Assembly (NCBI RefSeq): GCF_012911005.2
Contig: NZ_WTVS01000011.1
Coordinates: forward strand, 1-64,000
Length of the DNA: 64,000 bases
Source: Aromatoleum toluolicum
Lineage (GTDB): Bacteria; Pseudomonadota; Gammaproteobacteria; Burkholderiales; Rhodocyclaceae
Reading direction: 5' to 3'
The notes below the pieces were generated by a model, which saw nothing but the letters and a program-made list of their open reading frames with translations, had not been told where the DNA came from and ran no database searches. Shown in pieces: positions 1,624-20,754 of the stretch; within the stretch, counting starts at the first letter, position 1; every line of letters starts with the position of its first letter. Both the position numbers and the translations under genes were made by a program.

Positions 1624-1710
1624 GTCAGCCCCTGAAACAGGTACGGCATCAGCCCGGGGTCTTCGTCCCAGTTGCATCCAACTTCCCCTCCGGGATGATC
1701 CACGTCCCGG
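1624..1710 (+). promoter_or_regulatory. Structured leader, copy 1 of the dispersed family (upstream of the 77-aa gene)
   Basis: The first module is GTCAGCCCCTG (1624-1634), apical stem GGC/GCC around loop ATCA (1645-1654), then CGGGG (1655-1659) that can pair with CCCC at 1629-1632. A local CCTG-AAA-CAGG mini-hairpin is also possible. The second module is a CCGGGA/TCCCGG hairpin at 1690-1710. The gene at 1763 follows. Five relatives of this sequence occur elsewhere in the element, mostly ahead of other genes. The base pairing is visible; function as a leader RNA is inferred. Confidence 0.6.
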
Positions 1711-1762
1711 TCGCGGCTCGTGCGTTCTCCCGTCCAGCACCTACCCTCCGGGAGATCGCCAA

Positions 1763-1996
1763 ATGTGGCACGACGAACCCGCAAACAGGCCGGGGCAGGA
1801 TCCCCAAGCCTACCTTCCATTTACCCACTGGGAGGACCGTTTTCGCGAACGCATCGCACATTACCAGGAGCTGCTACTCCTGTTTCCCGGCTCCGCTTAC
1901 TTCGCAAACGAGCTCGCAAAGTACCAGCGCTGGTTCCATGAGCATCTCTTGCTGCGCCCCACCGGCTCTATCGCCGACGAAGAGCTACCGTTCTAA
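1763..1996 (+). CDS. Small hypothetical protein (77 aa)
   Basis: This is a 77-aa acidic/aromatic-rich protein with many W, F, Y, H and E residues and no signal peptide, membrane helix or recognisable motif. ATG 1763 is preceded by a CGGGAG ribosome-binding site. It lies behind a copy of the dispersed structured leader, as several other element genes do, which supports it as a real gene under shared control. A longer reading frame overlaps it in another phase but has poor composition. The function is unknown. Confidence 0.6.
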   Translation: MWHDEPANRPGQDPQAYLPFTHWEDRFRERIAHYQELLLLFPGSAYFANELAKYQRWFHEHLLLRPTGSIADEELPF

Positions 1997-2005
1997 CCAG
2001 AAACG

Positions 2006-2033
2006 GCGTTCCGGGCAGATTGGCCCGGAACGC
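2006..2033. terminator. 11-bp perfect inverted repeat after the 77-aa gene
   Basis: GCGTTCCGGGC, a 6-nt loop, then GCCCGGAACGC starts nine bases after the stop codon at 1996. The hairpin is strong but has no U-tract, so it may act as an RNA 3'-end stabiliser rather than an intrinsic terminator. Confidence 0.45.
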
Positions 2034-2424
2034 TCAACACCGCCCGCGCAGCCAGCATGCCGCAATAATGCCTTGCCGATATTCGACTGACGCACTATCG
2101 TAAAGCCGTCCAGTCGACATTTCCTGCTCTCGCTCCCCTCGCTAAGCGACGCCTCTTCGACCCTTCGAAGCAGCTTCGCGCCTTGCTTTCCCTTCGCTAC
2201 TGTCTGAGCGACTCGCCTAGGCGGGTTGCCTCGTCTCGTTGGATCCCTCGCGGCCGGCGCATGCCGGCACAGTGTCCAGGCGTCCCGCGCCTGGCGTCGC
2301 TCCGCTTTCGCGATCGGTGTCCGCCCGCCTCCACGCCCCGTGCCTGGCTGCGACACGTCGAAAAGCCAAGAACCACGGCCGAGACATTTTTCGACCACCG
2401 GCAACCGAGACACGGAGAGGAACA
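2034..2424 (+). other. Gene-free leader region of the EAL gene
   Basis: No supportable gene was seen. The stretch is pyrimidine-rich (runs such as TCGCTCCCCTCGC) with several short GC inverted repeats, for example GCCGGCGCATGCCGGC near 2253. The approximately 250-nt region ahead of the HD-like gene (20969-21232) has a similar C/T-rich style and shares short words such as GTCTCGT, so both may be long 5' leaders. Confidence 0.35.
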
Positions 2425-3330
2425 ATGCACACGACACGCAATCCCCCGGAACACCCGCATGGGTGGAATTGGAATCAACGGCGCAGCGTCCGGCCCGGGC
2501 GCCGGCTCCATCAAGCCACGGACGCGACGGCTCCCTCGCGCCTTCGGATCGGGCGAGACCTCCGACACGCCGTCGAGCATGACGAGTTCGTCCTTCACTA
2601 CCAACCCGAGATCGACGCAAGTACTGGCCACATGGTGGCGGCCGAGGCGCTGATCCGCTGGCAGCACCCCCAACTCGGCATGATCCGCCCCAACACCTTC
2701 ATCCCGGTCGCGGAGGACCAAGGACTGATCGGCAAGATCGGACAATGGGTGCTCGAGACCGCGTGTGCCCAGCTTCACGCGTGGCACGCCGCCGGCCATG
2801 ACCTGCGGGTCGCGGTCAACTTCTCGGTCGAGCAATTGCGCCGGCGCGACATCGCCGACACAGTCGCCAACGCACTCGAACGATTCGACCTGCAGCCCGA
2901 TGACCTGGTCGTCGAAATAACCGAGAGCATTTGCATGCGCGCCAACGATCGCGCGCGGGAGAACGTCGCTCGCCTCGCGCATCTGGGCATACGGCTGGCC
3001 ATCGACGACTTCGGCACCGGCTACTCCTCGCTGAGCTACCTCAAGCGCATGCCGGTCCGCATCCTGAAGATCGACCGAAGCTTTGTCGTCGATCTCGCCG
3101 ACGGCCCGGATTCGACAATCGTGCGAAACATCATATCGCTCGCCCATGAACTGGATCTGATCGTCATTGTGGAAGGCGTCGAGACGCCGGCTCAACACGA
3201 ACTCCTGCGCGTCATGGGCTGCGACATGGTCCAGGGCTACCTGGTTGGTGAAAGCCTTCCACCGGCCCTGTTCCACGATGCGTTTCTCGCCCCCCGACAG
3301 CACACGATCGTCGAGCCGGAGCGGATCTGA
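2425..3330 (+). CDS. Stand-alone EAL-domain cyclic-di-GMP phosphodiesterase
   Basis: This protein of 301 aa probably hydrolyses c-di-GMP to pGpG in the cytoplasm. The first 45 residues are basic and disordered, and the rest is one EAL domain. The signature EALIRW is at about residue 74. The metal/lid motif DDFGTGYSS is at about 193, followed by LKIDRSF, VEGVET and QGY, so the catalytic set looks complete. There is no GGDEF, PAS or membrane segment. ATG 2425 follows a GGAGAGG ribosome-binding site; an upstream in-frame start would only add low-complexity sequence. An EAL enzyme on a mobile element could lower host c-di-GMP (motility/biofilm), which is inference. Confidence 0.88.
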   Translation: MHTTRNPPEHPHGWNWNQRRSVRPGRRLHQATDATAPSRLRIGRDLRHAVEHDEFVLHYQPEIDASTGHMVAAEALIRWQHPQLGMIRPNTFIPVAEDQGLIGKIGQWVLETACAQLHAWHAAGHDLRVAVNFSVEQLRRRDIADTVANALERFDLQPDDLVVEITESICMRANDRARENVARLAHLGIRLAIDDFGTGYSSLSYLKRMPVRILKIDRSFVVDLADGPDSTIVRNIISLAHELDLIVIVEGVETPAQHELLRVMGCDMVQGYLVGESLPPALFHDAFLAPRQHTIVEPERI

Positions 3331-3456
3331 ATGGACACGCCGACCGACATGCTGGCACTGCGCGCCGGCCCTTCCGGTGCAGCCTAAATTATCACCGACG
3401 GGGTAAGACGCGCCGTCATCGACGGCCGCCACCCTGCGGCGTCAAGTATCGATCGC

Positions 3457-3825
3457 TCAACACGCAGGATGGTTGTGCGAATAGACAACCGCTGCCGCAT
3501 TGAGCCAGAGTGCTTCCTTCACGACCTCGCGCGGATACACACATGCCTGGTCGATGGTGCCGTGGAACAGTTTCATGTACTCGATCAGCCGGTTCTGGCT
3601 GTCTAGGTACGGCGCCCCGAAGATCTCGTGCTCGAAGCTGGCCAGCGTGGCGCGCAGGTAGTCCTTGAACAGCGCCGGCGAAGTGAACAGCGTCCCGCGT
3701 GGGCTCTTCTGGGCGATGGCTTGGCGGGACGCCGCCAGAATCTGGTCCGCCGACGCCACCAAGTAGCGCCCCTGCGCGTCACGCACCAGCAGCGAGGAAT
3801 CGAGAGAGAGGGAGAGTTGCGACAT
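3457..3825 (-). pseudogene. radC: Truncated RadC (JAB/MPN domain) protein
   Basis: These 122 codons match the N-terminal part of ICE-borne RadC proteins, including the segment from FGAPYLDSQNRLIEY to a metal-binding SHNHP. The frame stops right after HNHPAC. The following S-G and the conserved Asp of the JAMM metal site (HxH...SxxD), and about 40 further residues, are missing. The DNA beyond the break encodes no recognisable RadC remainder in any phase, so this looks like a deletion or recombination junction rather than a point frameshift. The product should lack a complete zinc site. ATG 3825 gives the usual MSQLSLSLDSS start. Confidence 0.8.
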
Positions 3826-4182
3826 GAGCGTGCACCGGTTGCTCAGGCGGCATTGCCTGGAACCGGCTCCAGCGCAGCGCAAGCAGTCACAGGGGCGAAG
3901 ACGGCCACGGCCGCAAGCGCCCAAGGCACGCGGCCCTTGACGGAGAAAGCGCCGTGGTACGGTGAAGGGAACAGCAAGTCCGCCCACAGCCCACCATCCG
4001 CAGAGACGATGGATGGGCAAGCGCAGCGCGGAGGCCCTCAAGGGCCGGAGGCGTCAGGGATCAAAGCCGGATGGCCGCGACTCGGCACGAGGTGCGGGGC
4101 GCAGCCGGCAAGCCCGACGCCGGAACGCCGAGACGCTGCTGCGTTCTGAAGTTTACTCCCCATAGGAATGCAACATGGTTAG
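3826..4182. other. Gene-free region upstream of radC and the ATPase gene
   Basis: No convincing gene was seen on either strand. On the minus strand this is the long radC leader, GC-rich with short repeated words (CGCGCTGCGC, GGCCCTTGAGGGCC). The final 60 bp become markedly AT-richer and form the promoter side of the ATPase gene. This base-composition step is consistent with a cargo junction near 4150. Confidence 0.4.
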
Positions 4183-4198
4183 ACGTATAGTCATACGT
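4183..4198. promoter_or_regulatory. Inverted repeat upstream of the ATPase gene
   Basis: ACGTAT-AGTC-ATACGT is a 6+6 bp palindrome 28 bp before the ATG at 4226. It sits in an AT-rich stretch where the promoter should be, so it is a likely operator. An ACGTAA/TACG-type vocabulary also appears in the KfrA-proximal repeats at 19638, but the two sites are not the same sequence. Confidence 0.45.
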
Positions 4199-4225
4199 AG
4201 TAACCTATAGAGACAGGGAGGGCTC

Positions 4226-6874
4226 ATGGCGATATTGCAGGAAATCTTGGTTTGGACGCAGGGGCTTCCGGCATGGCAAAGCGATGCAGTTTCTCGGCTG
4301 CTGGCGAAACAAGCGCTGACGCCGCAGGATCATGAGGATTTGTATGCCTTGCTTAAGCTGCCCCACGGAATTCCAGATCCCAAGAATCGCCAGCCCCAGC
4401 CACTAACTGCTGAGCAGATTCCAGCACAAGTCAAGGCGACCACGCACATCGAGCTGCGGGCCATAAAGAATCTGCACAACGTCAACGCAATTGCTGAAAA
4501 TCAGCAGTTGGCGGTTGGTCCGGTCGGGATGACCGTCATATACGGCGATAACGGTTCTGGCAAATCAGGATACTCGCGGGTTCTCAAGCGTGCCTGTCGG
4601 GCGCGCGATCAATCGGAACCCATCCACCCCAATGCAAATTTGCCGGGAGCCAAGGCCGGCAATGCCCAGGCTTCCTTCGATATAGTCATTGATGGCGTTC
4701 TCAAAGAGGTGGTCTGGCAACAAGGGAAAGAGGCGCCTCCAGAACTTTCGTCATTCGCCATATTCGACGCACATTGCGCGCGCGCCTATTTGGATAATGA
4801 GGATGACTTCTCCTACGTGCCGTATGGCCTAGACGTATTCGAAGGACTCGCCAAGGTTTGCCAACAGCTCAAAACGGCCATTGAGACCGAGCAAAAGCAG
4901 TCGGCGGTGGATCTCACTGCATTTGCGCACCTACAGGGGGAAACTGCCGTCGGCAAGCTGATCGCGGCGCTCTCTGCGAAAACAAGCACTGCACAGATTG
5001 AAGCTCTCGCCGCTCTCAAGCCAGAAGAACTTGAGCAGCGGGAAACGCTAGAGAAAAGCCTCAAAGAGAACAACCCGAAGGAAAAGGCGGGTCGCTTGCG
5101 CTTGCGCGCGCGCCGTGTCACGTCAATCGCCAAAAATTCTGTCGAGAAAGGACTCGTGGTCGCCCCTGAAGCCATCGCCAAGTTGAAGGCACTGGCCGAT
5201 GATTTTCGTACGGCACAGGCCGCCGCCGCACTCGCTGCGAAGACTTTCAAGGAAGGGGAAAACCTTCTGGCGGGAACTGGCGGAGAAGCGTGGCGGGAAC
5301 TGTTCGACGCAGCCCGGAAGTTCGCGCTAGAAGCGCATCCAGACAAACAGTTCCCAGATTTGGGAGCAGACGCCGCGTGCCCGCTGTGTCAGCAGCCGCT
5401 GGCCGCAGGCGCGGAACGGCTGCTGCGATTCGAGGCGTTCATACAAGCAGAGGCGGAAAAGACGGCCCAGGCGCGGCGCCAGGCGCTCGCTGCCGAGTAC
5501 CGTCCGTTTGCCGCCTCAGTCATGGCGTTGAACCTCGATGAGGCGACGCAGGTAGAGATAGAAGAAATCGACTCACCGTTGGTAGCCGACACCAAGGCTT
5601 TCGAGGCCGCACTAACGGTTCGGCATGAAGCAATCAAGGCAGCGGTCGTCTCCCATGACTGGACGGGGCTGGATCAGGCACTGGTCAGTCCGGCCGAGCG
5701 GCTGCAGGCGCTCGCTGACAAGCTGAACGCCGAAGCGGAGGCTCTGGAGAAAGCCTCGAATGAAGAAGCTCGCGCTGCGTTGCAGAAGCAACTTGGCGAG
5801 TTGGATGCCCGCGTAAAGCTCAGCCAAGTCAAGGAGGCTGTGGTTACGGCGGTGGAAAAGCTGGGACACCAAGGGAAGCTGAAGAACTGCCTGGCCGCCG
5901 TCAGGACAAATGCCATATCCCTCAAGGCGTCGGAACTGGCGGAGAAAGTCGTCTCCAAGGAGCTAGCCGATGCGTTGAACCGCGAATTCAAAGCCCTGGG
6001 CGTGGGAAGCCTGAGCGTTTCTCTGCAAAGCCGTGCCGACCGAGGGAAAGCGCTGCATAAGCTAAAGCTACAGCTACCGCAAGTCCGTAGTCCGGGTGAA
6101 ATCCTGAGCGAAGGCGAGCAACGCGCCATCGCGATCGGCTCGTTCCTTGCCGAGGTGGGGTTGAGCGGCGGCAAGGGAGGGATCGTTTTCGACGATCCAG
6201 TATCCTCCCTCGACCACCGTCGGCGCGAGCGCGTTGCCCGGCGCCTCGCTGCTGAAGCGGTGCAGCGGCAGGTCATCATCTTCACGCACGACATCTATTT
6301 CCTCTGCTTGTTGGCCGAGGAGGCGAAGCAGGTCGGCGCCGCAGTGGTTACGCAAAGCCTGACACGGCGCGCCGAAGGCTTCGGCATAGCGGACCCGGAA
6401 TTGCCATTCGAGGGGAAGAACGCCAGCAAGCGCATCGGCGCGCTGAAAGCGCAGCAACAGGCCATTGCCAAGCTACACAAAGATGGCGACCAGCAGGAGC
6501 ACCACAGGCAGACGGTTGATGCCTACTTCCGCCTGCGTATGACATGGGAACGAGCTGTGGAAGAAGTCCTCCTGCGCGAAGTCATTCTCCGCTTCCGCAA
6601 GGGCGTGGAGACACAGCGGCTCGTCGGTGTGAGTGTGGACGATGATGACTATGCGCAGGTCAACGCGGGGATGAGCAAGTGCTCCAACTACGCCCATGAC
6701 AAAGCGATGATGGGTGGCGTTGCTGTTCCTGACCCAGACGAACTGCTTGCAGACATCCTCGCACTGGAGAACTGGCGTGCACAGGTGCACAAGCGTTCCG
6801 AAGAGACCGCCAAGAAGCGCAAGGCCGGGCCGCCGATTGCCGCAGGAGCTGGCATGCAAGGCGCGCCAGCCTGA
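4226..6874 (+). CDS. SMC/RloC-like AAA ATPase with zinc hook (candidate defence protein)
   Basis: This encodes 882 aa. Walker A GDNGSGKS is at residues 107-114, an ABC-type signature LSEGEQRA near 627, Walker B IVFDDPVSSLD near 651 and an H-loop IIFTHD near 683. Long coiled-coil arms between them carry a CPLC zinc hook near 385. This is the layout of the AAA_13 group that includes anticodon nucleases PrrC/RloC. The C-terminal extension has RMTWE (an R-x3-E spacing) and a later NYAHD histidine, compatible with an anticodon-nuclease-like R/E/H set, but that assignment is speculative. ATG follows GGGAGGGC. AT content exceeds that of neighbouring genes, suggesting acquired cargo. No partner gene follows on the same strand. 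Confidence 0.75.
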   Translation: MAILQEILVWTQGLPAWQSDAVSRLLAKQALTPQDHEDLYALLKLPHGIPDPKNRQPQPLTAEQIPAQVKATTHIELRAIKNLHNVNAIAENQQLAVGPVGMTVIYGDNGSGKSGYSRVLKRACRARDQSEPIHPNANLPGAKAGNAQASFDIVIDGVLKEVVWQQGKEAPPELSSFAIFDAHCARAYLDNEDDFSYVPYGLDVFEGLAKVCQQLKTAIETEQKQSAVDLTAFAHLQGETAVGKLIAALSAKTSTAQIEALAALKPEELEQRETLEKSLKENNPKEKAGRLRLRARRVTSIAKNSVEKGLVVAPEAIAKLKALADDFRTAQAAAALAAKTFKEGENLLAGTGGEAWRELFDAARKFALEAHPDKQFPDLGADAACPLCQQPLAAGAERLLRFEAFIQAEAEKTAQARRQALAAEYRPFAASVMALNLDEATQVEIEEIDSPLVADTKAFEAALTVRHEAIKAAVVSHDWTGLDQALVSPAERLQALADKLNAEAEALEKASNEEARAALQKQLGELDARVKLSQVKEAVVTAVEKLGHQGKLKNCLAAVRTNAISLKASELAEKVVSKELADALNREFKALGVGSLSVSLQSRADRGKALHKLKLQLPQVRSPGEILSEGEQRAIAIGSFLAEVGLSGGKGGIVFDDPVSSLDHRRRERVARRLAAEAVQRQVIIFTHDIYFLCLLAEEAKQVGAAVVTQSLTRRAEGFGIADPELPFEGKNASKRIGALKAQQQAIAKLHKDGDQQEHHRQTVDAYFRLRMTWERAVEEVLLREVILRFRKGVETQRLVGVSVDDDDYAQVNAGMSKCSNYAHDKAMMGGVAVPDPDELLADILALENWRAQVHKRSEETAKKRKAGPPIAAGAGMQGAPA

Positions 6875-6989
6875 GCCAACCGGATCGTGCATTTGCCAGA
6901 CGAGTGGTCGCACTGCTGGGCCTCTAAGTGCGCTCGCCTTATCGTCTGCTGTGACCGCCCCACTATGACTGCACGAGGCGTCAAGGCGG

Positions 6990-8273
6990 TCAGGCCTCTT
7001 GGCTGGTTGCCGCATGATTGCGATTCAGGTCCGAAACCACCGCGATCAACCTGTTGATCGGTTCGGCCAGCCGCTTTGGCAATACGCGGTGCTGCGTATG
7101 GGTTTTCAGGTCAGCGATCCAGCGATGCGCAACCCACACGTCTTCTTCGGGGTGGTCGTTGTCCACGCCGTTGCAATACTTGTATCCCACGAGCGCATCA
7201 GTGTGCGACAGCAGGATGCGCGCCATCGTCATGTGGAAGCGATGGGCCTGGAGATCCGCCGGGCCTTTGGGACGCGGCAGGGTCAGCCGTAGGCATCGGT
7301 GGCCGTTGAACTCACTCCAGTCGGGGCCAACGACCTGTCCCGCGCGTTCCAGCATCTTGCGCGACTGCTCGTTCTTGCCGTTGACCAGGGCAACGGCGAC
7401 CGTACTCTTCGGGTACTCCAGCTTTTCGGCGAGCAGGTTCATCCAGCGCACCAGCTTGTTCAGGGTCTCATCGTCAGCAAACACTAGAAACTGATGCCGC
7501 TGTTCGTCGTCAAGAAACGCCGGCAATTGCACATGGAGGGGGTACAGAAGGTCGTGGAGATAGATGTAGGTCTGCCGGCGTCCTTGCTCGTGGCTCCGCG
7601 TGGTCGCGGTCAATACCTGCCGTGCCCACTCGGGCGTGAGTTCGTCCAGCGTCATCTCGGTGATGTCGATGGAGATCAGAGGAAATCCAAGCGACTTCCC
7701 GATCAGCGCCTTGCGCCCGTCGAAGGCGTGGCCGAGTTCGATTTCAACGCCGCCCAGCACCATCGGCTCAGCCTGGACCGGCGGGCCGAGCACAGCAACG
7801 TCGAGCCGGAATTTGCTGCCAAATGGCGTCTCCAGGGGGTGTTCGGTTGCAACCTGGTCGGCGCCGAGCAACAAGTTGCCTTCCAACGGATAGTCCGACG
7901 CATCCGCATCCTTGAACGCCCACGGCATCGCAAGCCCGGCATTCAAACGTCGGGAGAGTTCGGCTGCGACAAGTTCTTTCGCCCGCCTGTGTTCGGGACT
8001 TTCCTGCACGGCGCGCCACCGGCTGGCTTCTTCATCATCGAAGTGCGCTTTAGGGTTGAAGGTGTGCTGGGCAGGAAGCACCCGGAAATGGGATCGCCGA
8101 CGCAGCTTCCCGCTTTCAAAGGAGGGGCTGACCCATGTCACCATCTGCCGTGATGCCCCGGGAGACACCAGGGGCCACAGCTTTCGCGCATGTTCCCGGC
8201 TGCGAACATCGCGCGCGGCGATCGTGGTCTGAAAAATCCCTTTCCGAGAGAAGACAACGATCGCCTCGTCCAT
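6990..8273 (-). CDS. CoiA-like / PD-(D/E)XK nuclease-like protein
   Basis: This encodes 427 aa. The central part contains KFRLDVAVLG followed by GVEIELGHAF, then K and a FPLISIDI strand, matching the D...(E)xE...K spacing of PD-(D/E)XK folds as in CoiA-type nucleases. Flanking regions are alpha/beta with many charged residues; no membrane segment or helicase motif is seen. It is the third gene of a minus-strand operon, 13 bp behind the TIGR02391-like gene, and converges on the ATPase gene. A nuclease effector in a defence-type operon is the best guess. The fold call rests on motif spacing alone. Confidence 0.5.
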   Translation of the reverse strand: MDEAIVVFSRKGIFQTTIAARDVRSREHARKLWPLVSPGASRQMVTWVSPSFESGKLRRRSHFRVLPAQHTFNPKAHFDDEEASRWRAVQESPEHRRAKELVAAELSRRLNAGLAMPWAFKDADASDYPLEGNLLLGADQVATEHPLETPFGSKFRLDVAVLGPPVQAEPMVLGGVEIELGHAFDGRKALIGKSLGFPLISIDITEMTLDELTPEWARQVLTATTRSHEQGRRQTYIYLHDLLYPLHVQLPAFLDDEQRHQFLVFADDETLNKLVRWMNLLAEKLEYPKSTVAVALVNGKNEQSRKMLERAGQVVGPDWSEFNGHRCLRLTLPRPKGPADLQAHRFHMTMARILLSHTDALVGYKYCNGVDNDHPEEDVWVAHRWIADLKTHTQHRVLPKRLAEPINRLIAVVSDLNRNHAATSQEA

Positions 8274-8286
8274 TCTTGTCTTTCCC

Positions 8287-9105
8287 TTATGGCGATACGG
8301 CCGCTAATTTCGTGGTGCCATCCAGCTTGCGATGAATCAGCGATACCAGCGTCAGGATGTCCAGTGCGTCCTGTTCGGACATAGGCCAGTTCGTCTTGGG
8401 TGCATGGGCCAGCGGATTGCGCACGGCGCCAAACAGGCCGATCAGCAGGTTGGCAAAGCCTTTCTGCGCGCTCTTTTCCGACTCGGTGGTGAGTGATCCC
8501 AAGGCGAGAACAGGCTGTTGGCCCGCAAATGCCTTGTTCACCAGGTCCGCGCCATCACCGTTCAGGCCCGACAGCAGGCGAATCCGTTCCGCAACGCCTT
8601 TCGTTGCCTCGAACACGGCATGGAAGTAATTTTCGTCCAGCGGCTCGGCACGGCAGTAGTTCAGCACTTCCGCGTGGACGACGCGGCTTTCCAGCGCGGC
8701 CTTGAGTCGACCCGCGCGGGCGCGCGCGGCATCGAGCGTCGTGGCCTTGTCGGCGTGCCCGACCTTGCCGTCCTCGCGTACGTAGAAACCGGAGAAGGCA
8801 AGGACGACATTGAGTTCGCCGCGCCGCCAAGAGAACGTCGCGGGATCGCGGGCGTAGTTCACCGGGTTCATCGCGCGATTGATGAACATGATGAGATGGT
8901 TGCCGACCTGGTGCCGGTCTTGTGCGCCGGCCAGCGCATTGAATAACCGCTTCCACTTGATCATGCCGGGCGACGTGTCGGCAATCTCGATTTCTTGCAG
9001 CAACCGCTCGATCTGTGTGCCACTCAGACCGCGCTCGGTATCGGCGAGCACGCGGCACGCGGCTTCAAGATGCTGTGAGCTGAAAGGGTTAATTCGGGCC
9101 GCCAA
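8287..9105 (-). CDS. TIGR02391/Ymh-like protein with HEPN-type RNxxxH motif
   Basis: This 272-aa protein has a C-terminal half ending in the pattern LIGLFGAVRNPLAHAPK, followed by W and DILTLVSLIHRKLD. This is the hallmark of the TIGR02391 (Hypoth_Ymh) family, often found beside restriction or defence genes. R-N-P-L-A-H fits the R-x4-H motif of HEPN ribonucleases, so RNase activity is possible. The N-terminal half may mediate regulation or target recognition. It sits 22 bp behind the HTH gene and 13 bp ahead of the nuclease-like gene, in one apparent operon. Confidence 0.7.
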   Translation of the reverse strand: MAARINPFSSQHLEAACRVLADTERGLSGTQIERLLQEIEIADTSPGMIKWKRLFNALAGAQDRHQVGNHLIMFINRAMNPVNYARDPATFSWRRGELNVVLAFSGFYVREDGKVGHADKATTLDAARARAGRLKAALESRVVHAEVLNYCRAEPLDENYFHAVFEATKGVAERIRLLSGLNGDGADLVNKAFAGQQPVLALGSLTTESEKSAQKGFANLLIGLFGAVRNPLAHAPKTNWPMSEQDALDILTLVSLIHRKLDGTTKLAAVSP

Positions 9106-9127
9106 TGCTTGTCTCCCTGGTCAGGCG

Positions 9128-12828: not shown

Positions 12829-12856
12829 CCCATGCGGGTACGAGTCCCCGCATGGG
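12829..12856 (-). promoter_or_regulatory. Hairpin in the leader of the Snf2 helicase gene
   Basis: CCCATGCGGG pairs perfectly with CCCGCATGGG around an 8-nt loop, about 30 nt before the helicase start codon. A second stem (GGGGCGA/TCGCCCC with an inner GCC-TTC-GGC) lies farther upstream. GC hairpins in this position recur before other genes of the element, suggesting control at the level of translation or mRNA stability. Confidence 0.55.
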
Positions 12857-12923
12857 TTTGACGTGGAAGAACAGGGTGGGGCGATAGCCGAAGGCGGACG
12901 TATTCGCCCCGAACGCTTTTGCC

Positions 12924-13889: not shown

Positions 13890-13904
13890 GATGAGTGCCT
13901 CCCT

Positions 13905-14030
13905 TCATTGGACGCCAATCGCCAATGACGATTGGTTTTCGGGTACGGAGGCGGACCGGACGCGAGACAAGCGCCTGGCGTCCGCGCCCAAGAGCGTGGC
14001 TTCGAGGTCGGTGAAATCGACGTTTTTCAT
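13905..14030 (-). CDS. Very small ICE protein (41 aa)
   Basis: The frame starts MKNVDFTDLEATLLGADARR and ends 15 bp before the next gene. ATG 14030 is preceded by GAGGAGC at the right distance, and the region upstream is a copy of the dispersed structured leader. A ribosome-binding site, a family leader and tight spacing to the downstream gene all favour a real coding unit, either a small protein or a leader peptide of the operon. The function is unknown. Confidence 0.5.
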   Translation of the reverse strand: MKNVDFTDLEATLLGADARRLSRVRSASVPENQSSLAIGVQ

Positions 14031-14062
14031 GGCAAAGCTCCTCAAGAAATGGGGAGATGCCG

Positions 14063-14154
14063 CCACCCCATCGGGGAAGCGGATCTTCCCGGTGGGGTGG
14101 ATGAAGGACGAATGCCCCGGGCCCCGAAGGGCCGTCGCTGTTTCAGGGGCTGAC
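14063..14154 (-). promoter_or_regulatory. Structured leader, copy 2 (upstream of the 41-aa gene)
   Basis: Read on the minus strand it has GTCAGCCCCTG, apical stem GGCCC/GGGCC with a TTCG tetraloop (14120-14133) and a basal CCCC/GGGG pairing. A large second hairpin (14063-14100) follows, with CCACCCCA/TGGGGTGG outside and GGGAAG/CTTCCC inside. The same order is seen in the DUF3577 leader with different bases in the stems. Confidence 0.65.
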
Positions 14155-14190
14155 AGCGCTCGGTGTCGACGCGATGGCGTCGCCGCAAAA

Positions 14191-14532: not shown

Positions 14533-14563
14533 GATGCGCTCCTGAATGTCCCGTCGGTCGCCG

Positions 14564-14592
14564 CACCCGCCGGGCGTGCAACCCGACGGGTG
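14564..14592 (-). promoter_or_regulatory. Hairpin before the 113-aa gene
   Basis: CACCCGTCGGG and CCCGGCGGGTG (minus strand) form an 11-bp stem including one G-T pair around a 7-nt loop, ending about 30 nt before ATG 14532. Its CACCC...GGGTG flavour matches the second hairpins of the structured leaders. Confidence 0.5.
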
Positions 14593-14640
14593 ATGAGGGA
14601 GGACAATGGAATCGCGGCGGCACGGCCGCCCGAGGAGAAA

Positions 14641-15264: not shown

Positions 15265-15439
15265 CTCGTTCTCCCAAAGAATGATAGATGGCTGGAAGAC
15301 AACACAAAGGCGAGCTCGCCCCCGAAGAGCGAGCCCGTTCGGGTTGCAGTGGTGGTGGTCAAAGCGCTGGCGCTGAGGGCCAGCAAATCGAGGCGGAGCG
15401 GTGCTCCGCAAGACCAATGTGCAGTGCGTTTGCCCTGCC

Positions 15440-16537
15440 CTATTGGATCGTGACGATGGACCCGAACCCGGGCCCTGGAGTGAAATCGATCCCGCGTATC
15501 ACGGGCACGAACCGATCGGTAAGAATGACAGTTTCACTGACGGTCCCATCCGGGCTTTCCGAAAGCTCGACGGAGCGGACCTTGTCCTTGTACGTGTCGC
15601 CCTTGATCAACAGGGTGCGACCGCTACCGGCGGTCACGATTCCGTGAGCGTGACCGGCCGCCAGCGCCAAAGCCAGGTGCCACCGCCCCATTGCAGTCAA
15701 GGGCGGACGGTGGGCGCCTTTCGTAACACCGAAGTGAGTCCGGAACTGCGGCCAGAGACTATGCGCATGCAGTCGCGCCACCTCGGCCGCGAGTTGGGCG
15801 GCGTCGATGCGGACCGCGTGAAAGCGGCCCTCCCCACCTGCAATCTCCGGAACGGCGTACGGCTCGTCGGTCCAGCACTCGGGCAATACCTGATTGCATG
15901 CTTCGCCCTTACCGGCAGCAATGAGCGCCGACACGGTGCGGGATTCCGGCCGATCCGAACGGCGTCGAACGCCGAACACCACGCACTGCTTGAACTGTTG
16001 CTCCGGAGCCATATGGAAGCGAATGCGATCGAAGTTGCGGGCAAGGAGACCTGCGAACTCCGCGTCGAGCACGTAGTAAGGCACGATGAGAACGAGGACG
16101 CCTCCGAACGCAAGGGTTTGAAAGGTCCGCCGGAAGAAGATCTTCTCGAGTCGATCTGGCCCTTTGTCGCCGGTCTGCGCCCGGTCCGCCACCACGTCGC
16201 CATAGGGCGGATTCAGGAACAAGAGACCCATGGACCCCGGTGTTAGGACGACGTCCTGGATGTCGGCGTGAATCGCAAGGTCCAGGACGGATTTCGCATG
16301 CCAGGCGCGCTCGGCATCGAACTCGACGCCGAATGCCTGAACAGCGGCACCGCATCCAGTCAGCGCTTCCCTGACCTGGTGGAGCGCAGCGCCTTCGCCG
16401 CAGCACGGATCAAGGATCCGTAGCTCATTGCCTGCCACATCGAGGGCGGCGACAATCCGCTCGAGCGTCGCTTGGTCGGTCGGGTAGTAGCCGTTCTTCA
16501 CGAAATTGCGCGCCAGGCGCGGGAATATCAGGGCCAT
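15440..16537 (-). CDS. DUF6094-type N6-adenine DNA methyltransferase
   Basis: This 365-aa protein belongs to the class-I SAM-dependent methyltransferases. Motif I ILDPCCGEGAAL is at about residue 44 and the catalytic motif IV LFLNPPYG at about 107, characteristic of adenine-N6 methylation. The C-terminal 150 residues are probably target recognition. ATG 16537 follows a strong GAGGAGG site. No restriction partner is adjacent, so it is likely an orphan methylase of the element that modifies host DNA or evades restriction after transfer (inference). It is preceded by copy 3 of the structured leader. Confidence 0.85.
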   Translation of the reverse strand: MALIFPRLARNFVKNGYYPTDQATLERIVAALDVAGNELRILDPCCGEGAALHQVREALTGCGAAVQAFGVEFDAERAWHAKSVLDLAIHADIQDVVLTPGSMGLLFLNPPYGDVVADRAQTGDKGPDRLEKIFFRRTFQTLAFGGVLVLIVPYYVLDAEFAGLLARNFDRIRFHMAPEQQFKQCVVFGVRRRSDRPESRTVSALIAAGKGEACNQVLPECWTDEPYAVPEIAGGEGRFHAVRIDAAQLAAEVARLHAHSLWPQFRTHFGVTKGAHRPPLTAMGRWHLALALAAGHAHGIVTAGSGRTLLIKGDTYKDKVRSVELSESPDGTVSETVILTDRFVPVIRGIDFTPGPGFGSIVTIQ

Positions 16538-16608
16538 GGAACCTCCTCGGAGTCGGCGGGACGCATTGACCCTCGACGGGCCGATCGCGACCCGCAGGTT
16601 GTGGATGA

Positions 16609-16649
16609 TGTCCCGGAGCGAGATGCTCGGTCCTGTTGCAGGGACTGAC
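16609..16649 (-). promoter_or_regulatory. Structured leader, copy 3 (upstream of the methylase)
   Basis: Minus strand: GTCAGTCCCTG, CCTG-CAA-CAGG mini-hairpin, apical stem GAGC/GCTC (16616-16628), closed by GTCCC/GGGAC. Relative to the other copies the basal stem has changed on both sides (CCCC/GGGG to TCCC/GGGA), a compensatory pair that supports the structure. It ends about 70 nt before ATG 16537. Confidence 0.62.
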
Positions 16650-16957
16650 AGGCTGATGAATCTGGCAACACGCGCCACCGGCCGATAGCCGGACGGCCGC
16701 AAACGGATTTCCATCGTCGGTCTGCCTGCTGTGGGCCGACCATGGGAACCCGCTGGTTCCGCTTGGATGGGATTTGAACGATACCTTCGTCACACCCGCG
16801 GGCCTCAGGCGCGTTGCCCTGAGACCCCGTGGCTCGGATGCGAGGCACCCCAGTGGAAGGCGTGGGCGCCGATGAAAGGGCGCGCGGGGAAACCGCCGAC
16901 GCAAATGCCGCAACACATCGGGCGTGTTGCTGCCCAGTTGTCGATGGAGCCCTCGCA

Positions 16958-17010
16958 GGCTTTCCGAATCACGCGCGTCCCCTGACGTACTGAACCCGAT
17001 TCGGAAAGCC
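16958..17010. repeat. 13-bp perfect inverted repeat
   Basis: GGCTTTCCGAATC (16958-16970) and GATTCGGAAAGCC (16998-17010) are exact reverse complements separated by 27 bp. They lie in the 514-bp stretch between the methylase and DUF3275 genes, which otherwise shows no supportable gene. There is no U-tract. It may be a protein-binding site, an origin-type structure or a transcript 3' end. Confidence 0.5.
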
Positions 17011-17051
17011 CGCGCGCGGGCTGGCGGCCGGAGTCGGCCGCGGGGATTGTT

Positions 17052-17699
17052 CTACGATGCGTCCGCCTTCGCGGCCAGGTAGGCCCGATACCGATCGGAT
17101 TCCTCCGGATACCAGACCTGCTCTTCCGGCACAAAGCCGTATTGGAGTCCGGACTTCAGCCTATTGCGCTGCTCCCGGAAGCGCCGGCGGTCATCGATCG
17201 TCGGATCGAGCTTCACCGGTTGGCGCGCCGCGACCAGCCCGTGGAGCTCGTCGCCGAAGAGTGCGAGATCGGGCGATTCGTCCGAACCTGTGGTGGGAGA
17301 TACCGGCGGCGCCCCGCCCTCCTGCCCTCGTTCGGGCGCACCGCTTCCCTCCAAATCGCCATTCCCGGCACCAGGACGCGCAGTCTGCGCTACCGCCTCG
17401 TCAGCGGGATCGGGTTCCATCGGGGCCTCGGGCAAACTCCTTTCCGTGCCGCTTTGAACGTGCAGATCGGCGAGTCGGGCGCGGATCTCCAACACGAGCC
17501 GACCGTTGCTGGCATAGGACCAGGGGAAGATGCGCTGAATGAAATAGCGCCCCGTGTAGCTCCCTTCCTCGAACTGATCGAGGATCGGGTCCTTGACACG
17601 AAACTCGCCGATATCGGTCAGCAGATCGCCGACACAGAACGGACCATTGGCCCCCTTGATGCGCTTGATGTTCAGCGTGCCTTCGACAGTGATGCTCAC
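17052..17699 (-). CDS. DUF3275 family ICE protein
   Basis: This encodes 215 aa. The N-terminal 90 residues (SITVEGTLNIKRIKGANG, FCVGDLLTDIGEFRVKD, IFPWSYASNGRLVLEIRA) match the DUF3275 family found in ICEs of the PAPI/clc type, from memory. The middle is a Pro/Gly/Glu-rich linker and the C-terminus is basic and aromatic (RNRLKSGLQYGFV). A GTG start at 17699 with GGAGATCGAGATC before it fits the family start better than the upstream open frame. The function is unknown; the context is element maintenance. It is preceded by copy 4 of the structured leader. Confidence 0.8.
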   Translation of the reverse strand: MSITVEGTLNIKRIKGANGPFCVGDLLTDIGEFRVKDPILDQFEEGSYTGRYFIQRIFPWSYASNGRLVLEIRARLADLHVQSGTERSLPEAPMEPDPADEAVAQTARPGAGNGDLEGSGAPERGQEGGAPPVSPTTGSDESPDLALFGDELHGLVAARQPVKLDPTIDDRRRFREQRNRLKSGLQYGFVPEEQVWYPEESDRYRAYLAAKADAS

Positions 17700-17913
17700 G
17701 ATCTCGATCTCCGAATGCGGTATCGGAGGCCCGCCCACCGAGGGGGACGAACGCCCCCGATGGGTGGTTGAAAATCGGACACCGAACGGGTCGAACCATC
17801 GGTGCCTGCGGTACAGGAGGGCCACCAACATGGTTGGTGGCCCCGGCTTTGAAAGAGGCACCGGTATTCCGGACCGGTACGGGATCGAAGCGGACAGGCC
17901 AGGCCCGACCGAG

Positions 17914-17953
17914 GACCCCAGGCCTGACGGCCGTCCCAGTTACAGGGGCTGAC
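17914..17953 (-). promoter_or_regulatory. Structured leader, copy 4 (upstream of DUF3275)
   Basis: Minus strand: GTCAGCCCCTGTAACTGG, apical stem GGCC/GGCC around loop GTCA (17921-17932), basal CCCC/GGGG. A long leader of about 215 nt with further inverted repeats follows to the GTG at 17699, including GCCACCAACCATGTTGGTGGC. A GCACGTTT/AAACGTGC hairpin at 17966-17988 may end the upstream DUF3577 transcript. Confidence 0.6.
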
Positions 17954-18042
17954 TGGGCGCACCACGCACGTTTTTTGCCGAAACGTGCAAAACGGGTGGA
18001 AACCCACGAAAGGCTCCGAGCTTGGATCGGCTGATCGGGTGA

Positions 18043-18549
18043 TCACCCGCTGGTGCCGGTGCGCTCCAGGTGAGCGCTTTCGGCCGCTGGCTGAACATCC
18101 GTGGTCTTCGGGCGTTCGTAGACCGTTTGGCCGTCCACCTTGACGTGCGTCAGCAGTAGCAGCCGGCCCTTGATGATGACTCGCGGTTCCTTGCCGGGCG
18201 CACCGGTTTCGGAATCCTTGACGTCGGCATAGTAGAGATGTGGGTAGATGTCACCCACGCGGAATGACACAAAGACCTTGCGGTCGTTCTGGACATCCTG
18301 CTTGAAGCGTTCAACGAGCTCGGCACACTCGGCACCGACCACTCTGAGGTCAAAGTACGTGTACGCCGGTTCCGTGACGGACCCGTGAACAGCGTTGATT
18401 GCGCATGCGAGAAAGGGCTCGGCTCGACGGCCGCCACCGCGCGGCTTCACCCACCGGACCCGGCCCAAATAGCCGCATCCCTTGGTATGCAGGTCGAAAT
18501 GCTCCTTCTCGGGAGCGGTCTTGGAAGCAACTTGCATGGATTCGGACAT
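18043..18549 (-). CDS. DUF3577 (STY4534-like) ICE replication-associated protein
   Basis: This 168-aa protein has a core including HFDLHTKGCGYLGRVR, PFLACAINA, TYFDLRVVG and KVFVSFRVGDIYPHLYYAD. It matches the DUF3577 family, annotated in several ICEs as a replication protein of the STY4534 type (recalled, not searched). The beta-rich pattern could be an OB-like fold. ATG 18549 lies about 160 nt behind a good promoter, and the intervening leader carries copy 5 of the structured element. Confidence 0.82.
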   Translation of the reverse strand: MSESMQVASKTAPEKEHFDLHTKGCGYLGRVRWVKPRGGGRRAEPFLACAINAVHGSVTEPAYTYFDLRVVGAECAELVERFKQDVQNDRKVFVSFRVGDIYPHLYYADVKDSETGAPGKEPRVIIKGRLLLLTHVKVDGQTVYERPKTTDVQPAAESAHLERTGTSG

Positions 18550-18592
18550 GACAGTCTCCAGACGAAAAAAATCGGGAGACCACACATCCCAT

Positions 18593-18676
18593 GATCGGGA
18601 AGTGAATCTTCCCGATCGGGTGGGTGATACAAACGAAACCCCGGACCTGACGGTCGTTCCGGTTACAGGGGCTGAC
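18593..18676 (-). promoter_or_regulatory. Structured leader, copy 5 (upstream of DUF3577)
   Basis: Minus strand: GTCAGCCCCTGTAACCGG, apical stem GACC/GGTC around loop GTCA (18644-18655), basal CCCC/GGGG. The second module is a perfect 10-bp hairpin GATCGGGAAG/CTTCCCGATC with a 5-nt loop (18593-18617). It lies wholly inside the transcript predicted from the promoter at 18718-18745, so it would be part of the mRNA leader. Confidence 0.68.
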
Positions 18677-18717
18677 CGGACACAGTACAACGGCCACATG
18701 GCCGAATACTCGCGCCG

Positions 18718-18745
18718 ATTTTACGCCAAGTGCCCGCGCCGTCAA
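18718..18745 (-). promoter_or_regulatory. Sigma-70-type promoter for the DUF3577 leader
   Basis: On the minus strand TTGACG (18740-18745), 16 bp, TAAAAT (18718-18723) predicts a start near 18711. The structured leader begins about 35 nt downstream. Apart from these elements, 18746-19212 holds no gene I can support. Confidence 0.6.
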
Positions 18746-19212
18746 CAGGGCAACGCCATCGAGCCAATGGCAGCATGCCACCACCGTAGAAACGGGGACC
18801 AGCGGTGTTGCGCCCCAGACAGTGGCACGACGACTCGAGCGCACCTTCAGTCTGATCAAGCCGCCTTGCATTTCTTCGCTTGATCAGCGACATTCCCGCG
18901 AGGGGACGGACCTCATCCGCCCGACAGAAACCCTTCGCACACGATCGCGACCAGCCTGCTCGGCTGCACGACCTCTCGCATCTGCAACAGCACGCTAATG
19001 CGCCGGATTTGATGCCGCCCGCGCGCGTTTGACGCCCCAGACAGGGAACTGGTGCCCACGGCGGGCCCATCGTGTGGTGCTCCCATCGTCTGGACGGCCC
19101 GCCGCGCCAGTTGTTCTCCCCGATGGGGCTCCTCCGCTCGGGGGCTGCACCCGACTTGGCGCCATCCACACTGCAATCACATGACATTCCCCTGGGCATG
19201 GAGGTAAGGGTT

Positions 19213-19533
19213 ATGAACGTCGTGCACATCAACACCCATCCGGCCCGTCTGCGACCGGGCGAGATGGCGATCCACCGCGAGCACGGATGGGTCGAGATCC
19301 TCGAACGCGCCGGAACACTGCTACGAATACGATGGATCGACCGCGCATTGGTAGCCCCCGACGCCCTCGAACCCGACGAGATCGACGGCGAAGTCCTGAC
19401 GGTCTGGGAGGACTGGGTCGGGTGCGACAGCTTGAAGCCGATGCCAAGACCGTCAATGCGCGGCGAATCGGTAGCTCAAACGCCCCTTGACCTTGCGGCC
19501 CGACGAGCTCTACGGAGGGTGCCAACGACATGA
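19213..19533 (+). CDS. Small ICE hypothetical protein (106 aa)
   Basis: ATG 19213 follows GGAGGTAAGG, an excellent ribosome-binding site, and decides the start. Residues 18-75 (EMAIHREHGWVEILERAG, LLRIRWIDR) look like a small beta-barrel of the kind used for nucleic-acid or protein binding. The C-terminus is basic. The stop overlaps the next small frame by ATGA. A CCCC-GAT-GGGG hairpin and an AT-poor leader precede it. The function is unknown. Confidence 0.6.
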   Translation: MNVVHINTHPARLRPGEMAIHREHGWVEILERAGTLLRIRWIDRALVAPDALEPDEIDGEVLTVWEDWVGCDSLKPMPRPSMRGESVAQTPLDLAARRALRRVPTT

Positions 19534-19625
19534 GACGTCTGCGAAACCGGACTCGCCAGGGCCACAAGCAGCGCCCCACCCCACCGCTGACCGGGCTCAC
19601 CTCGATCGAGGTCATGGGCGCTTGA
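19530..19625 (+). CDS. Possible 31-aa basic peptide coupled to the 106-aa gene
   Basis: The frame begins MRRLRNRTRQGHKQ, strongly basic, and ends just before the KfrA-proximal repeats. It shares ATGA with the stop of the preceding gene, a common arrangement for coupled genes. The very short length leaves the call uncertain. Confidence 0.3.
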   Translation: MRRLRNRTRQGHKQRPTPPLTGLTSIEVMGA

Positions 19626-19637
19626 TTCATACCGTAC

Positions 19638-19665
19638 CGTAACCTATCGTACGTAACGTATCGTA
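19638..19665. promoter_or_regulatory. Tandem 14-bp repeats, likely KfrA operator
   Basis: CGTAACCTATCGTA is followed immediately by CGTAACGTATCGTA (one mismatch), ending 13 bp before the kfrA-like start codon. A further CCGTAC half-site lies upstream. KfrA proteins of plasmids bind repeats in their own promoter, so autoregulation is the natural reading. Confidence 0.65.
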
Positions 19666-19678
19666 CTGGAGACGTGAG

Positions 19679-20560
19679 ATGCCTCGGGAAGCCAGCATCA
19701 CGTACGAGCAGGTGGCGGCCATCGCCGATGGCATCAAAGCCGCCGGCGGGAAACCCACCCCACGCCAGATCCGCGAGCGTCACGGCAGCGGCAGCCTGGG
19801 CACCATCCATAAGCTGTTCCAACGATGGGAAGGCAACCAGCCGCCATCCATCGAAGCAGGTTCAGCCCTCCCCCCTGCGCTGCAACGGACGATTCTCGAC
19901 TTCGTGACGCAGGAACGGGCAACGGCTCGGGCCGACCTCGACGCCAAACTGTCTGACATGCAAGCGGCCGCCGGCGAGCTCGCCGCCGAGAACGAGCGCC
20001 AGAGCGGCCACATCGAGACGCTGGAAAGCACCCTGCAGACGTCTCAGGAAGAGAAGGCAGCGCTCGCCGGAAAGATCGAGCAAATGGCGGCCGACCTCTC
20101 CGCAGCCCGGGACGAAGCCGCCCGTGAGCGTCACGCAGCCGAGGCCACCCGCACCGAGTTGGCCAAGGCACATGTTCGACTCGACGCCCTGCCCATCCTC
20201 GAAAACGAGAACGAGCGGCTACGAAGTGCGGTAGACGCCGAGCGCGACGCTCGCACCAATGCCGAACGTCTGGCCGCGATCGCAGAGGCGAAGGCCGCAG
20301 GCCTCAGCGAGCGCCTGGCGGATAGCCAGGCGCGCCACACGCGTGAAGTGGCGAACCTCGACAGCCAGCTACAGGACCAAAAGCAGCGAAACGCGAACCT
20401 CGAGGCTGATCTGTCGGAGATACGCAAGGAGTCCCGCGACCTGGCCGCTCGCCTCGCTCAGGCGACTGGCGAGCTGGAAGCACTGCGCACTCAGAATGCC
20501 GGTCATCTGGATGTCATCAAGGGCTTCACCGCGCAAGGCACCGTAACGGGCACGTCGTAA
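19679..20560 (+). CDS. kfrA: KfrA-like DNA-binding coiled-coil protein
   Basis: This 293-aa protein has an N-terminal DNA-binding domain (residues 1-60: YEQVAAIADGIKAAGGKPT, IRERHGSGSLGTIHKL) of the KfrA_N type. From about residue 80 to 280 it is a nearly uninterrupted Ala/Glu/Arg-rich heptad coiled coil. KfrA proteins on plasmids repress their own gene and aid stable inheritance by forming filament- or nucleoid-like structures; here it would serve the element. ATG 19679 follows GGAGACGTG. Tandem repeats directly upstream are its probable operator. Confidence 0.85.
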   Translation: MPREASITYEQVAAIADGIKAAGGKPTPRQIRERHGSGSLGTIHKLFQRWEGNQPPSIEAGSALPPALQRTILDFVTQERATARADLDAKLSDMQAAAGELAAENERQSGHIETLESTLQTSQEEKAALAGKIEQMAADLSAARDEAARERHAAEATRTELAKAHVRLDALPILENENERLRSAVDAERDARTNAERLAAIAEAKAAGLSERLADSQARHTREVANLDSQLQDQKQRNANLEADLSEIRKESRDLAARLAQATGELEALRTQNAGHLDVIKGFTAQGTVTGTS

Positions 20561-20670
20561 AGGTCCAAGCGGCCGACGCTGACGTTGTCGTGCGCACGGG
20601 GGCCACTCCTTTGCCGGCAACCGTCGACGGAGAACCTGACCTGGCAATCGACACATTGTGAAGCGGCCCC

Positions 20671-20699
20671 TTGACGAGCCGGCGTATGGCGCCTACGAA
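20671..20699 (+). promoter_or_regulatory. Promoter upstream of structured leader copy 6
   Basis: TTGACG (20671-20676), 17 bp, TACGAA (20694-20699) predicts a start near 20706, a few bases before the structured leader. The same TTGACG -35 element is used for the DUF3577 leader. Confidence 0.5.
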
Positions 20700-20714
20700 T
20701 ATATTCAACGTCCG

Positions 20715-20754
20715 GTCAGCCCCTGTAACCGGAACGACCTTCGGGTCCGGGGTC
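20715..20754 (+). promoter_or_regulatory. Structured leader, copy 6 (upstream of the 49-aa gene)
   Basis: GTCAGCCCCTGTAACCGG, apical stem GACC/GGTC with a TTCG tetraloop (20736-20747), basal CCCC/GGGG (20720-20723 with 20749-20752). It is nearly identical to copy 5 except that the loop GTCA is replaced by TTCG. It starts close to the predicted transcription start. Confidence 0.65.

Follow-up and report, generated by a model that had tools for sequence, protein, structure and literature searches.

What connects six short segments that stand in front of six different genes, on both strands, of one mobile element? The question is raised by the window analyzed here, a stretch of 64,000 nucleotides (nt) from Aromatoleum toluolicum (contig NZ_WTVS01000011.1, positions 1 to 64,000 of the forward strand), whose initial annotation proposed either a shared riboregulator or protein-binding site or a single-stranded DNA (ssDNA) structure used during transfer. 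A pattern search of the window confirmed all six segments with their positions and strands, as well as the different element gene that lies 3' of each, encoding a 77-amino-acid (aa) protein, a 41-aa protein, a DUF6094 methylase, a DUF3275 protein, a DUF3577 protein, and a 49-aa protein. According to our analysis, the segments represent a real class of pseudoknot leaders outside Rfam 15, which we regard as a solitary variant of the STAXI and radC leaders of conjugative elements since it shares with them the topology, the position, and a downstream platform in which the Shine-Dalgarno (SD) sequence is hidden. Each copy is probably a cis-acting mRNA leader that exerts translational control.

Fold, covariation, and distribution of the repeated segment

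In the initial annotation the segments were drawn as plain stem-loops with a basal stem CCCC/GGGG, a fold that our analysis does not bear out. The 5' strand of this supposed stem sits within the loop of another helix, P1, and CCCC/GGGG is for this reason the helix of a pseudoknot (PK). Side-by-side reading of the copies gives the order P1 (5 base pairs [bp])-UCAG-PK (4 bp)-UGNRA-P1'-AC-P2 hairpin-C-PK', and the sequences indicate that each copy almost certainly folds into a compact pseudoknot of the H type into which a hairpin is inserted. The annotated locations of the segments stand, whereas their 5' ends lie 4 to 5 nt further upstream, the first strand of P1 having been missed.

The anatomy was compared over 53 copies, namely 58 parsed ones minus three that were misparsed (L202, L251, and L254) and two that are irregular (L241 14358 and L239 15926). 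L1, the loop between P1 and PK, reads UCAG in 49 of the 53, and L2, between PK and P1', reads UGNRA in as many (UGAAA in 22, UGUAA in 15, UGCAA in 7, UGAGA in 4, and UGCGA in 1). AC separates P1' from P2 in 35 of the 53 copies, and a C or a U precedes the 3' strand of PK. The closing G-C pair of P1 also varies, to U-A or A-U, and PK, which has 4 bp and perhaps 5 to 6, occurs as CCCC/GGGG, UCCC/GGGA, UUCC/GGAA, CCUC/GAGG, CCCU/AGGG, UCCU/AGGA, CCCA/UGGG, and UCGC/GCGA.

The covariation noticed among the six copies holds on the larger scale: over 52 aligned rows all 13 pairs change on both sides, the four PK pairs included, and 98.5% of the cells of the 13 pairs and 100% of the PK cells are paired, in an alignment that came from a model without pseudoknot pairs and that included a false row (47015) and irregular ones. 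The covariation score of these rows was reached by none of 500 shuffles, and sliding the register by 1 to 3 columns lowered the pairing to 17 to 53%. The score observed for a set of 16 sequences, obtained from 19 contexts of which three (L031, L084, and L089) were excluded on visual inspection because of their wrong geometry, was likewise reached by 0 of 500 shuffles. By mutual information with average product correction, the top 12 of 1,081 column pairs are structural, in a parser-made alignment that itself demands pairing (52 rows, that is, 52 of the 53 copies, one with a 4-nt L2 being omitted).

GNRA or UNCG was found in 33 of 43 four-nt P2 loops, and the functional molecule is therefore most likely RNA. 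An ssDNA structure serving transfer or replication, an idea that was raised for STAXI by its authors (PMC2864571) and that also figured in the initial annotation, is not borne out and seems extremely improbable here: such tetraloops (GCAA and UUCG), the G-U pairs, the use of both strands within one element, and the direction and tight spacing of the copies with respect to start codons all argue against it.

In the plasmid locus L203, the six copies that were read have six different PK sequences (a seventh match on the plasmid was left unread), from which it follows that shape and loops are kept rather than the PK sequence, a constancy that, to judge from these sequences, is as would be expected for structure-dependent binding. 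The same diversity bears on the possibility that a trans-acting small RNA opens or closes the pseudoknot, as IstR1 and TimR do on tisB and timP. The tisB and timP leaders are controlled in this way (PMC7708055 and PMC11228461), and the EFASI RNAs found near STAXI are thought to act in trans (PMC12370729), but PK sequences that differ within one element are hardly compatible with pairing to one antisense RNA, and we deem this explanation quite improbable. For an antisense gene no systematic search was made, only the scan of both strands of the window for the 11-mer GTCAGYCCCTG.

A covariance model, R1, which was made from 16 homologues including the six window copies, recovered these six and homologues in related elements. 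Over the whole genome R1 gave seven strong copies of 53 to 72 bits (those of the window plus a seventh on contig C285), and the next-best place scored 25 bits. The primary pattern was present in at least 117 stretches of GTDB contigs, and the fold filter retained Dechloromonas, Rhodocyclaceae, Hydrogenophilales, Gallionellaceae, betaproteobacterial, and gammaproteobacterial loci; among 274 genomes of the class, two had a match to the pattern, one of which lacked the fold. R1 matched all nine genomes or records behind nine chosen loci, the only match in the Comamonas record W01 being weak and divergent. Stricter filters, by which weak matches are lost, were applied in three further scans, where R1 matched five of the 399 genomes scanned from the own order, 1 of 369 genomes of the class (the own one), and none of 394 genomes of another order. 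The own order is probably Burkholderiales in the GTDB sense, since a Hydrogenophilales genome with matches at identical positions turns up in it again. The viral contigs yielded 49 stretches with the primary pattern, none of which keeps the fold (L031 passed a loose filter and failed on geometry), and 36 pattern matches to DUF3577 relatives, none of which was confirmed. The motif is thus rare and clustered, with 1 to 8 copies per locus.

Relation to the STAXI and radC RNAs

In Rfam scans, which covered the loci other than L144, L244, L245, L249, L253, and L257, no family was found to match the copies above chance. In the loci scanned, no copy was overlapped by a match at gathering level; down to an E value of 10 nothing overlapped a copy in window positions 1 to 24000, L238, L239, and L241; and a laxer scan of 211 bases returned one chance match on copy 5, to the human SMAD5-AS1_2, with a score of 11.4 bits where the cut-off is 50 and an E value of 0.85. 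No published description of the motif was recognized in the literature searched, a scope outside of which most subscription journals lie. The finding is nevertheless less isolated than the initial annotation supposed: STAXI (RF01728) and radC (RF01754) hold the same leader position in sister elements.

By a motif search, with Pfam PF12101 or the annotation of the record as confirmation, we found 20 distinct loci with a DUF3577 gene (L250 and L253 represent one gene, and L240, earlier clustered with DUF3577, yielded none). DUF3577 lies directly behind the motif studied here in nine of them (the window, L125, L203, L238, L239, L241, L245, L246, and L250), directly behind a radC RNA in four (L184, L185, L205, which is pKLC102, and L247), and directly behind a STAXI RNA in three (L183 and L274, with matches above the Rfam cut-off, and L280, with 36.1 bits, below the cut-off of 40.5). 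The four others are taken up below; since the pseudoknot loci were fetched for carrying the motif, this 9/4/3/4 split does not represent frequencies. L247 is part of a second element of the genome from which the window comes and has a radC match of 122 bits, so that this genome holds two elements (contigs C23 and C213) whose DUF3577 leaders are of different RNA kinds. A radC search of 15 genomes or records found this RNA present in 4 and absent in 11, the latter being eight genomes and three plasmids that all hold the present motif; the genome of the window (G000) and G1184 match both models. For STAXI, a scan of 177 genomes from one order detected the RNA in three.

STAXI shares with the present class the unit P1-PK-loop-P1'-hairpin-PK' and a P2 capped by UUCG, its own units being P1 (5 to 6 bp)-L1 (mostly 0 to 1 nt)-PK-UG..A-P1'-P2-PK'. 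The 5-nt UG..A loop between PK and P1' is common to both; the printed Rfam consensus gives it as UGaGA, UGaGA, and UGAaA, independently of our STAXI-unit descriptor, which demands UGNRA. Over 11 STAXI units 96.8% of the cells pair, and five of six PK pairs change on both sides. Both RNAs also precede DUF3577 (Pfam-confirmed for STAXI in L183, L274, and L280), with an SD-hiding platform following, and both occur near DNA-handling or element genes, here DUF3577, DUF3275, DUF6094, and a helicase. STAXI differs in its tandem units, whereas according to the descriptor a second unit within 160 nt is present in 0 of our 53 copies, and in having a PK of up to 6 to 7 bp and an L1 of up to 3 nt, compared with 4 bp and UCAG here. 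The descriptor gave 44 matches in 20 chosen loci with a total of 323,695 bases, versus 2.4 expected from shuffles; most of these are known copies or STAXI units, one or two may be due to chance, and one lies inside the pKLC102 radC RNA (L205:9821).

For radC, the arrangement P1-L1-PK-L2-P1'-P2-PK' was obtained by our own parse in all 14 matches read out of 15 distinct ones (the unread match being that of G1184, with 73.8 bits), with PK helices such as GGAUC/GAUCC, GGGUU/AACCC, AAACC/GGUUU, and CGAUC/GAUCG. This parse searched for pairing, and a permutation test served as its control: the loop-tail pairing was 12.6 for the own partners versus 8.9 (standard deviation 0.74) for permuted ones, a value reached in 0 of 5,000 permutations. 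The radC RNA is likewise a leader of DUF3577 (L205, L247, L184, and L185) and of neighboring element genes (L204 and L205), with the same kind of SD-hiding platform downstream. It differs in its length of 149 nt, in having additional hairpins on its 5' and 3' sides, and in its loops, L1 being mostly A or AC and L2 mostly UUCAA instead of UGNRA, while PK is often GAUC. The covarying radC pseudoknot, which was seen in L205, L204, L247, L184, L185, L264, L266, L267, and L268, is absent from the printed Rfam model.

The Rfam model of STAXI matched no copy, at an E value of 10 or at gathering level, in the loci scanned, and neither did the Rfam model of radC in the loci scanned. A model of the STAXI unit, R2, matched no copy in 17 loci, its best scores (15.7 and 13.7 bits) falling beside L239 copies on the other strand, and R1, R2, and the Rfam STAXI model all fail to detect the opposite class. 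The pseudoknot class thus falls outside the Rfam criteria for both STAXI and radC and is hence a member of neither family. Since the models do not detect one another's class, descent from a common ancestor rests on fold, place, and platform and not on sequence; from these three, common descent is plausible, convergence being the alternative to homology. Divergent copies with an L1 of UGA or UGAG (L202:13550 and 15768, both on the + strand, Comamonas plasmid) are possible intermediates between the loop codes of the classes.

When STAXI and radC were listed in 2010, neither had a proven function (PMC2864571). That radC, STAXI, and this previously unrecorded third class form one ancient family of pseudoknot translation switches is a possibility to which we give somewhat less than an even chance. 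On this joint reading, the switches would control replication and processing genes of DUF3577-carrying conjugative elements, whose lineages would keep the gene and the platform and exchange the pseudoknot module. Each module would have its own loop code, perhaps insulating it from co-resident elements, such as those in the genome of the window, where one element has the present class and another has radC. In this way three orphan motifs would lead to one testable hypothesis, namely on how conjugative elements restrain the translation of replication genes and then release it; the loop code, UCAG/UGNRA versus GAUC/UUCAA, offers clean mutants, and the presence of two element types in one genome provides a natural test of cross-talk.

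Position before start codons and probable control of translation

Over all 53 copies, the median distance from pseudoknot to start codon is 85 nt, and in 40 copies the assigned start lies 55 to 125 nt downstream. When a single rule was applied in both directions (an ATG that has an SD-like site, lies at most 125 nt away, and opens a frame of at least 45 aa), an SD-preceded ATG was found on the same strand in 41 of the 53 and on the opposite strand in 2, in agreement with the relation to gene starts that had been proposed for the window. The DUF3275 leaders are longer, about 200 to 340 nt, with the exception of L239 (88 nt). The copies do stand 5' of genes, as annotated, but the structured part does not end with them and continues to the start codon.

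The platform was studied in the 40 leaders with an assigned start at 55 to 125 nt. In their predicted folds the pseudoknot is followed by an open U/C-rich linker (39% T and 29% C), mostly by a second hairpin, and then by a hairpin that pairs the SD. The predicted probability of the SD being unpaired has a median of 0.004 and a mean of 0.06, versus 0.20 in shuffles (lower in 35 of 40), while that of the linker is 0.70 versus 0.52 (higher in 34 of 40), and the minimum free energy of the leaders has a mean z score of -3.3 relative to the shuffle control. An SD arm was found in 39 of the 40 leaders, the exception being window copy 3, and in 33 of 40 the own arm lay above the median of foreign arms searched with equal freedom. 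A paired SD (unpaired 0.000 to 0.25) is also predicted for every one of the 16 DUF3577 leaders that contain the present motif, radC, or STAXI, and by eye it lies below the second hairpin. In five plasmid loci, values below 0.2 were obtained for 6 of 6 pseudoknot genes, for 4 of 5 radC genes, and for two doubtful ones.

The tisB mRNA is described as having a closed ribosome-binding site and, about 100 nt further upstream, a pseudoknot next to an open region; the pseudoknot is required there for S1 and 30S binding and for translation (PMC7708055). In timP a pseudoknot far upstream of a sequestered site is needed for translation (PMC11228461). Since our leaders hold the same parts at the same scale, with an SD predicted to be closed by structure and a predicted open region next to the pseudoknot far upstream, distal standby is deemed our first choice: by analogy, pseudoknot and open linker may serve as a ribosome standby site, a proposal whose chance we put only slightly short of even. 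Translation would then start only via distal binding of the ribosome, in that pseudoknot and linker would load the 30S subunit and protein S1 about 100 nt ahead of the closed SD, through which the ribosome would subsequently work its way. The element genes would be kept silent as long as translation is co-transcriptional, and the pseudoknot would provide a single point for adjusting them together. Unlike our leaders, tisB and timP are enterobacterial toxin mRNAs with antisense RNAs, tisB needs 5' processing, and we claim no sequence kinship with them.

Several observations speak against these proposals. For 13 of the 53 copies, the DUF3275 leaders among them, no start is assigned at 55 to 125 nt. 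The SD-arm means differ modestly (16.9 for own, 13.6 for foreign, and 13.1 for shuffled arms), and 19 of 36 other element genes without a recognized RNA in the five plasmid loci also have an SD unpaired value below 0.2; with SD pairing so frequent elsewhere in the element, the platform is not specific to the pseudoknot. A -10 box at a fixed place upstream of the copies was not found, and some leaders have additional hairpins upstream of the pseudoknot, which therefore may not be near the 5' end, unlike that of tisB. Four of the 20 DUF3577 genes (L182, L202, L204, and L206) are not directly preceded by any of the three RNAs (in L204 a radC RNA precedes the gene before DUF3577, not DUF3577 itself), and further leader kinds are possible there. 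Finally, UCAG and UGNRA are stricter than a generic S1 site would need, which points to a specific partner. As a separate observation, the upstream hairpins GGCTGTCGGTTACAGCC and GATCCCCGTCAAGGATC are repeated in L148, L239, and L241, which suggests that in these elements the transcript starts above the pseudoknot.

A specific partner is what a translational operator would supply, where an element-encoded nucleic-acid-binding protein would bind the pseudoknot and repress several genes, its own autogenously. The near-invariant UCAG and UGNRA, together with freely changing helices, resemble a recognized shape, DUF3577 is the commonest gene under the copies (9 of 53 leaders), and 16 of the 20 DUF3577 genes follow one of the three RNAs. 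The best candidates would be the DUF3577 or DUF3275 products, whose models are predicted to have the topology of an oligonucleotide/oligosaccharide-binding (OB) fold, with best structural matches that are largely ssDNA-binding proteins and other nucleic-acid-binding proteins. These matches are weak, none reaching an E value of 0.001, and the models, with a mean predicted local distance difference test score of 70 for DUF3577 and 72 for DUF3275, come from alignments of 3 sequences each. For DUF3577, they include trypanosome editosome proteins, again none below 0.001, whose fold we take to be OB. A search by sequence found no solved structure for DUF3577, which is treated in PMC3334931. Against an operator stands the fact that radC-type sister elements share DUF3577 but not the loops, which would require one and the same protein family to recognize different loops; moreover, the SD is predicted to be closed without any repressor. 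The operator of T4 gene 32 is a pseudoknot, and gp32 has an OB fold. T4 gp32 provides the precedent, with translational control at its own mRNA (PMC535899), where, as here, a structured mRNA target lies ahead of a gene, that of an ssDNA-binding protein; it differs in being autogenous repression of one gene, while here many genes per element would be concerned. We consider such an operator possible, though doubtful.

The SD-hiding platform would equally suit a small-molecule riboswitch with a compact pseudoknot aptamer, and the size and H-type shape are like those of small pseudoknot aptamers. In the loci read, however, the copies stand before replication, DNA-handling, and small unknown genes, with several copies per element and no metabolic gene noticed downstream, and the sister classes have different loops, all of which makes a riboswitch very improbable. 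An mRNA stability or processing element, which would protect the 5' end or act as a nuclease site with no direct role in translation, fits the location of the copies upstream of start codons and between genes of the element's gene blocks; it leaves the SD-hiding hairpin unexplained, however, and is held to be improbable as well.

A switch in which the second hairpin alternates with the anti-SD arm was considered and rejected, as the two are complementary in some leaders (in L125 over 12 bp, by eye) but not in L238 7589 and L240 9267. Several leaders (for example L246 3506 and L239 14402) contain a terminator-like GGGG...CCCC followed by a U run, with stems of 4 to 5 bp, that overlaps the anti-SD arm, and a transcriptional branch of control via this feature appears possible from the sequence.

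The six copies in the window and their surroundings

Copy 1 (1620..1659, + strand) has P1 ACCTG/CAGGT, UCAG, CCCC/GGGG, UGAAA, and the hairpin GGC[AUCA]GCC, and is separated by 103 nt from the ATG of the 77-aa gene (1763..1996, +). Copy 2 (14115..14158, -), with P1 CGCTG/CAGCG and the hairpin GGCCC[UUCG]GGGCC, lies 84 nt from the 41-aa gene (13905..14030, -). Copy 3 (16611..16653, -), with P1 CCTG/CAGG, PK UCCC/GGGA, and the hairpin GAGC[AUCUC]GCUC, lies 73 nt from the DUF6094 methyltransferase gene (15440..16537, -; Pfam PF19587), and the arm search found no SD arm in its leader. Copy 4 (17916..17957, -), with P1 CCCAG/CTGGG, is about 216 nt from the DUF3275 gene (17052..17699, -; PF11679), whose product has a predicted OB-like N-terminal domain and whose GTG start (17699) was chosen by hand, the automatic start rule having placed the start elsewhere.

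Copy 5 (18639..18680, -), with P1 TCCGG/CCGGA and the hairpin GACC[GUCA]GGUC, lies 89 nt from the DUF3577 gene (18043..18549, -; PF12101), which encodes an STY4534-type replication protein of integrative and conjugative elements with an OB-fold-like model. According to its predicted fold, this leader comprises a U/C-rich open linker (18618..18638, -), a second hairpin (18593..18617, -; GATCGGGAAG/CTTCCCGATC), and an SD-hiding hairpin (18554..18581, -), in which GGTCTCC pairs with GGAGAC. Copy 6 (20711..20752, +) has P1 TCCGG/CCGGA and the hairpin GACC[UUCG]GGUC and stands 66 nt before the 49-aa gene (20819..20968, +), the SD of which is paired in the predicted fold.

The exact 11-mer occurs seven times on the two strands of the window. 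The seventh site, 62343-62353 (-), was rejected because the remainder of the motif is absent, and the look-alikes at 1450 (+), 8132 (-), and 47015 (-) were rejected as being without the motif. Upstream of copy 1, a hairpin CCGGTCAG...CTGACCGG is found at 1445-1482, whose 3' arm shows complementarity to P1-UCAG in copies 5 and 6, and R1 scores this place at 11.7 bits. By eye, a stretch CGTTTTG...GTTTCGG..AAAAAC with inverted symmetry was seen upstream of the pseudoknot in some DUF3275 leaders, namely at about 17958-18010 (-) of the window and in L238, L203, and L253. Three consecutive tRNA genes (23419-23709, -) beside the gene block of the element mark a possible attachment region. Between copies 1 and 2, Pfam identifies an AAA ATPase (AAA_13; 4226-6874, +) and a Hypoth_Ymh protein (8287-9105, -), both of them cargo-like.

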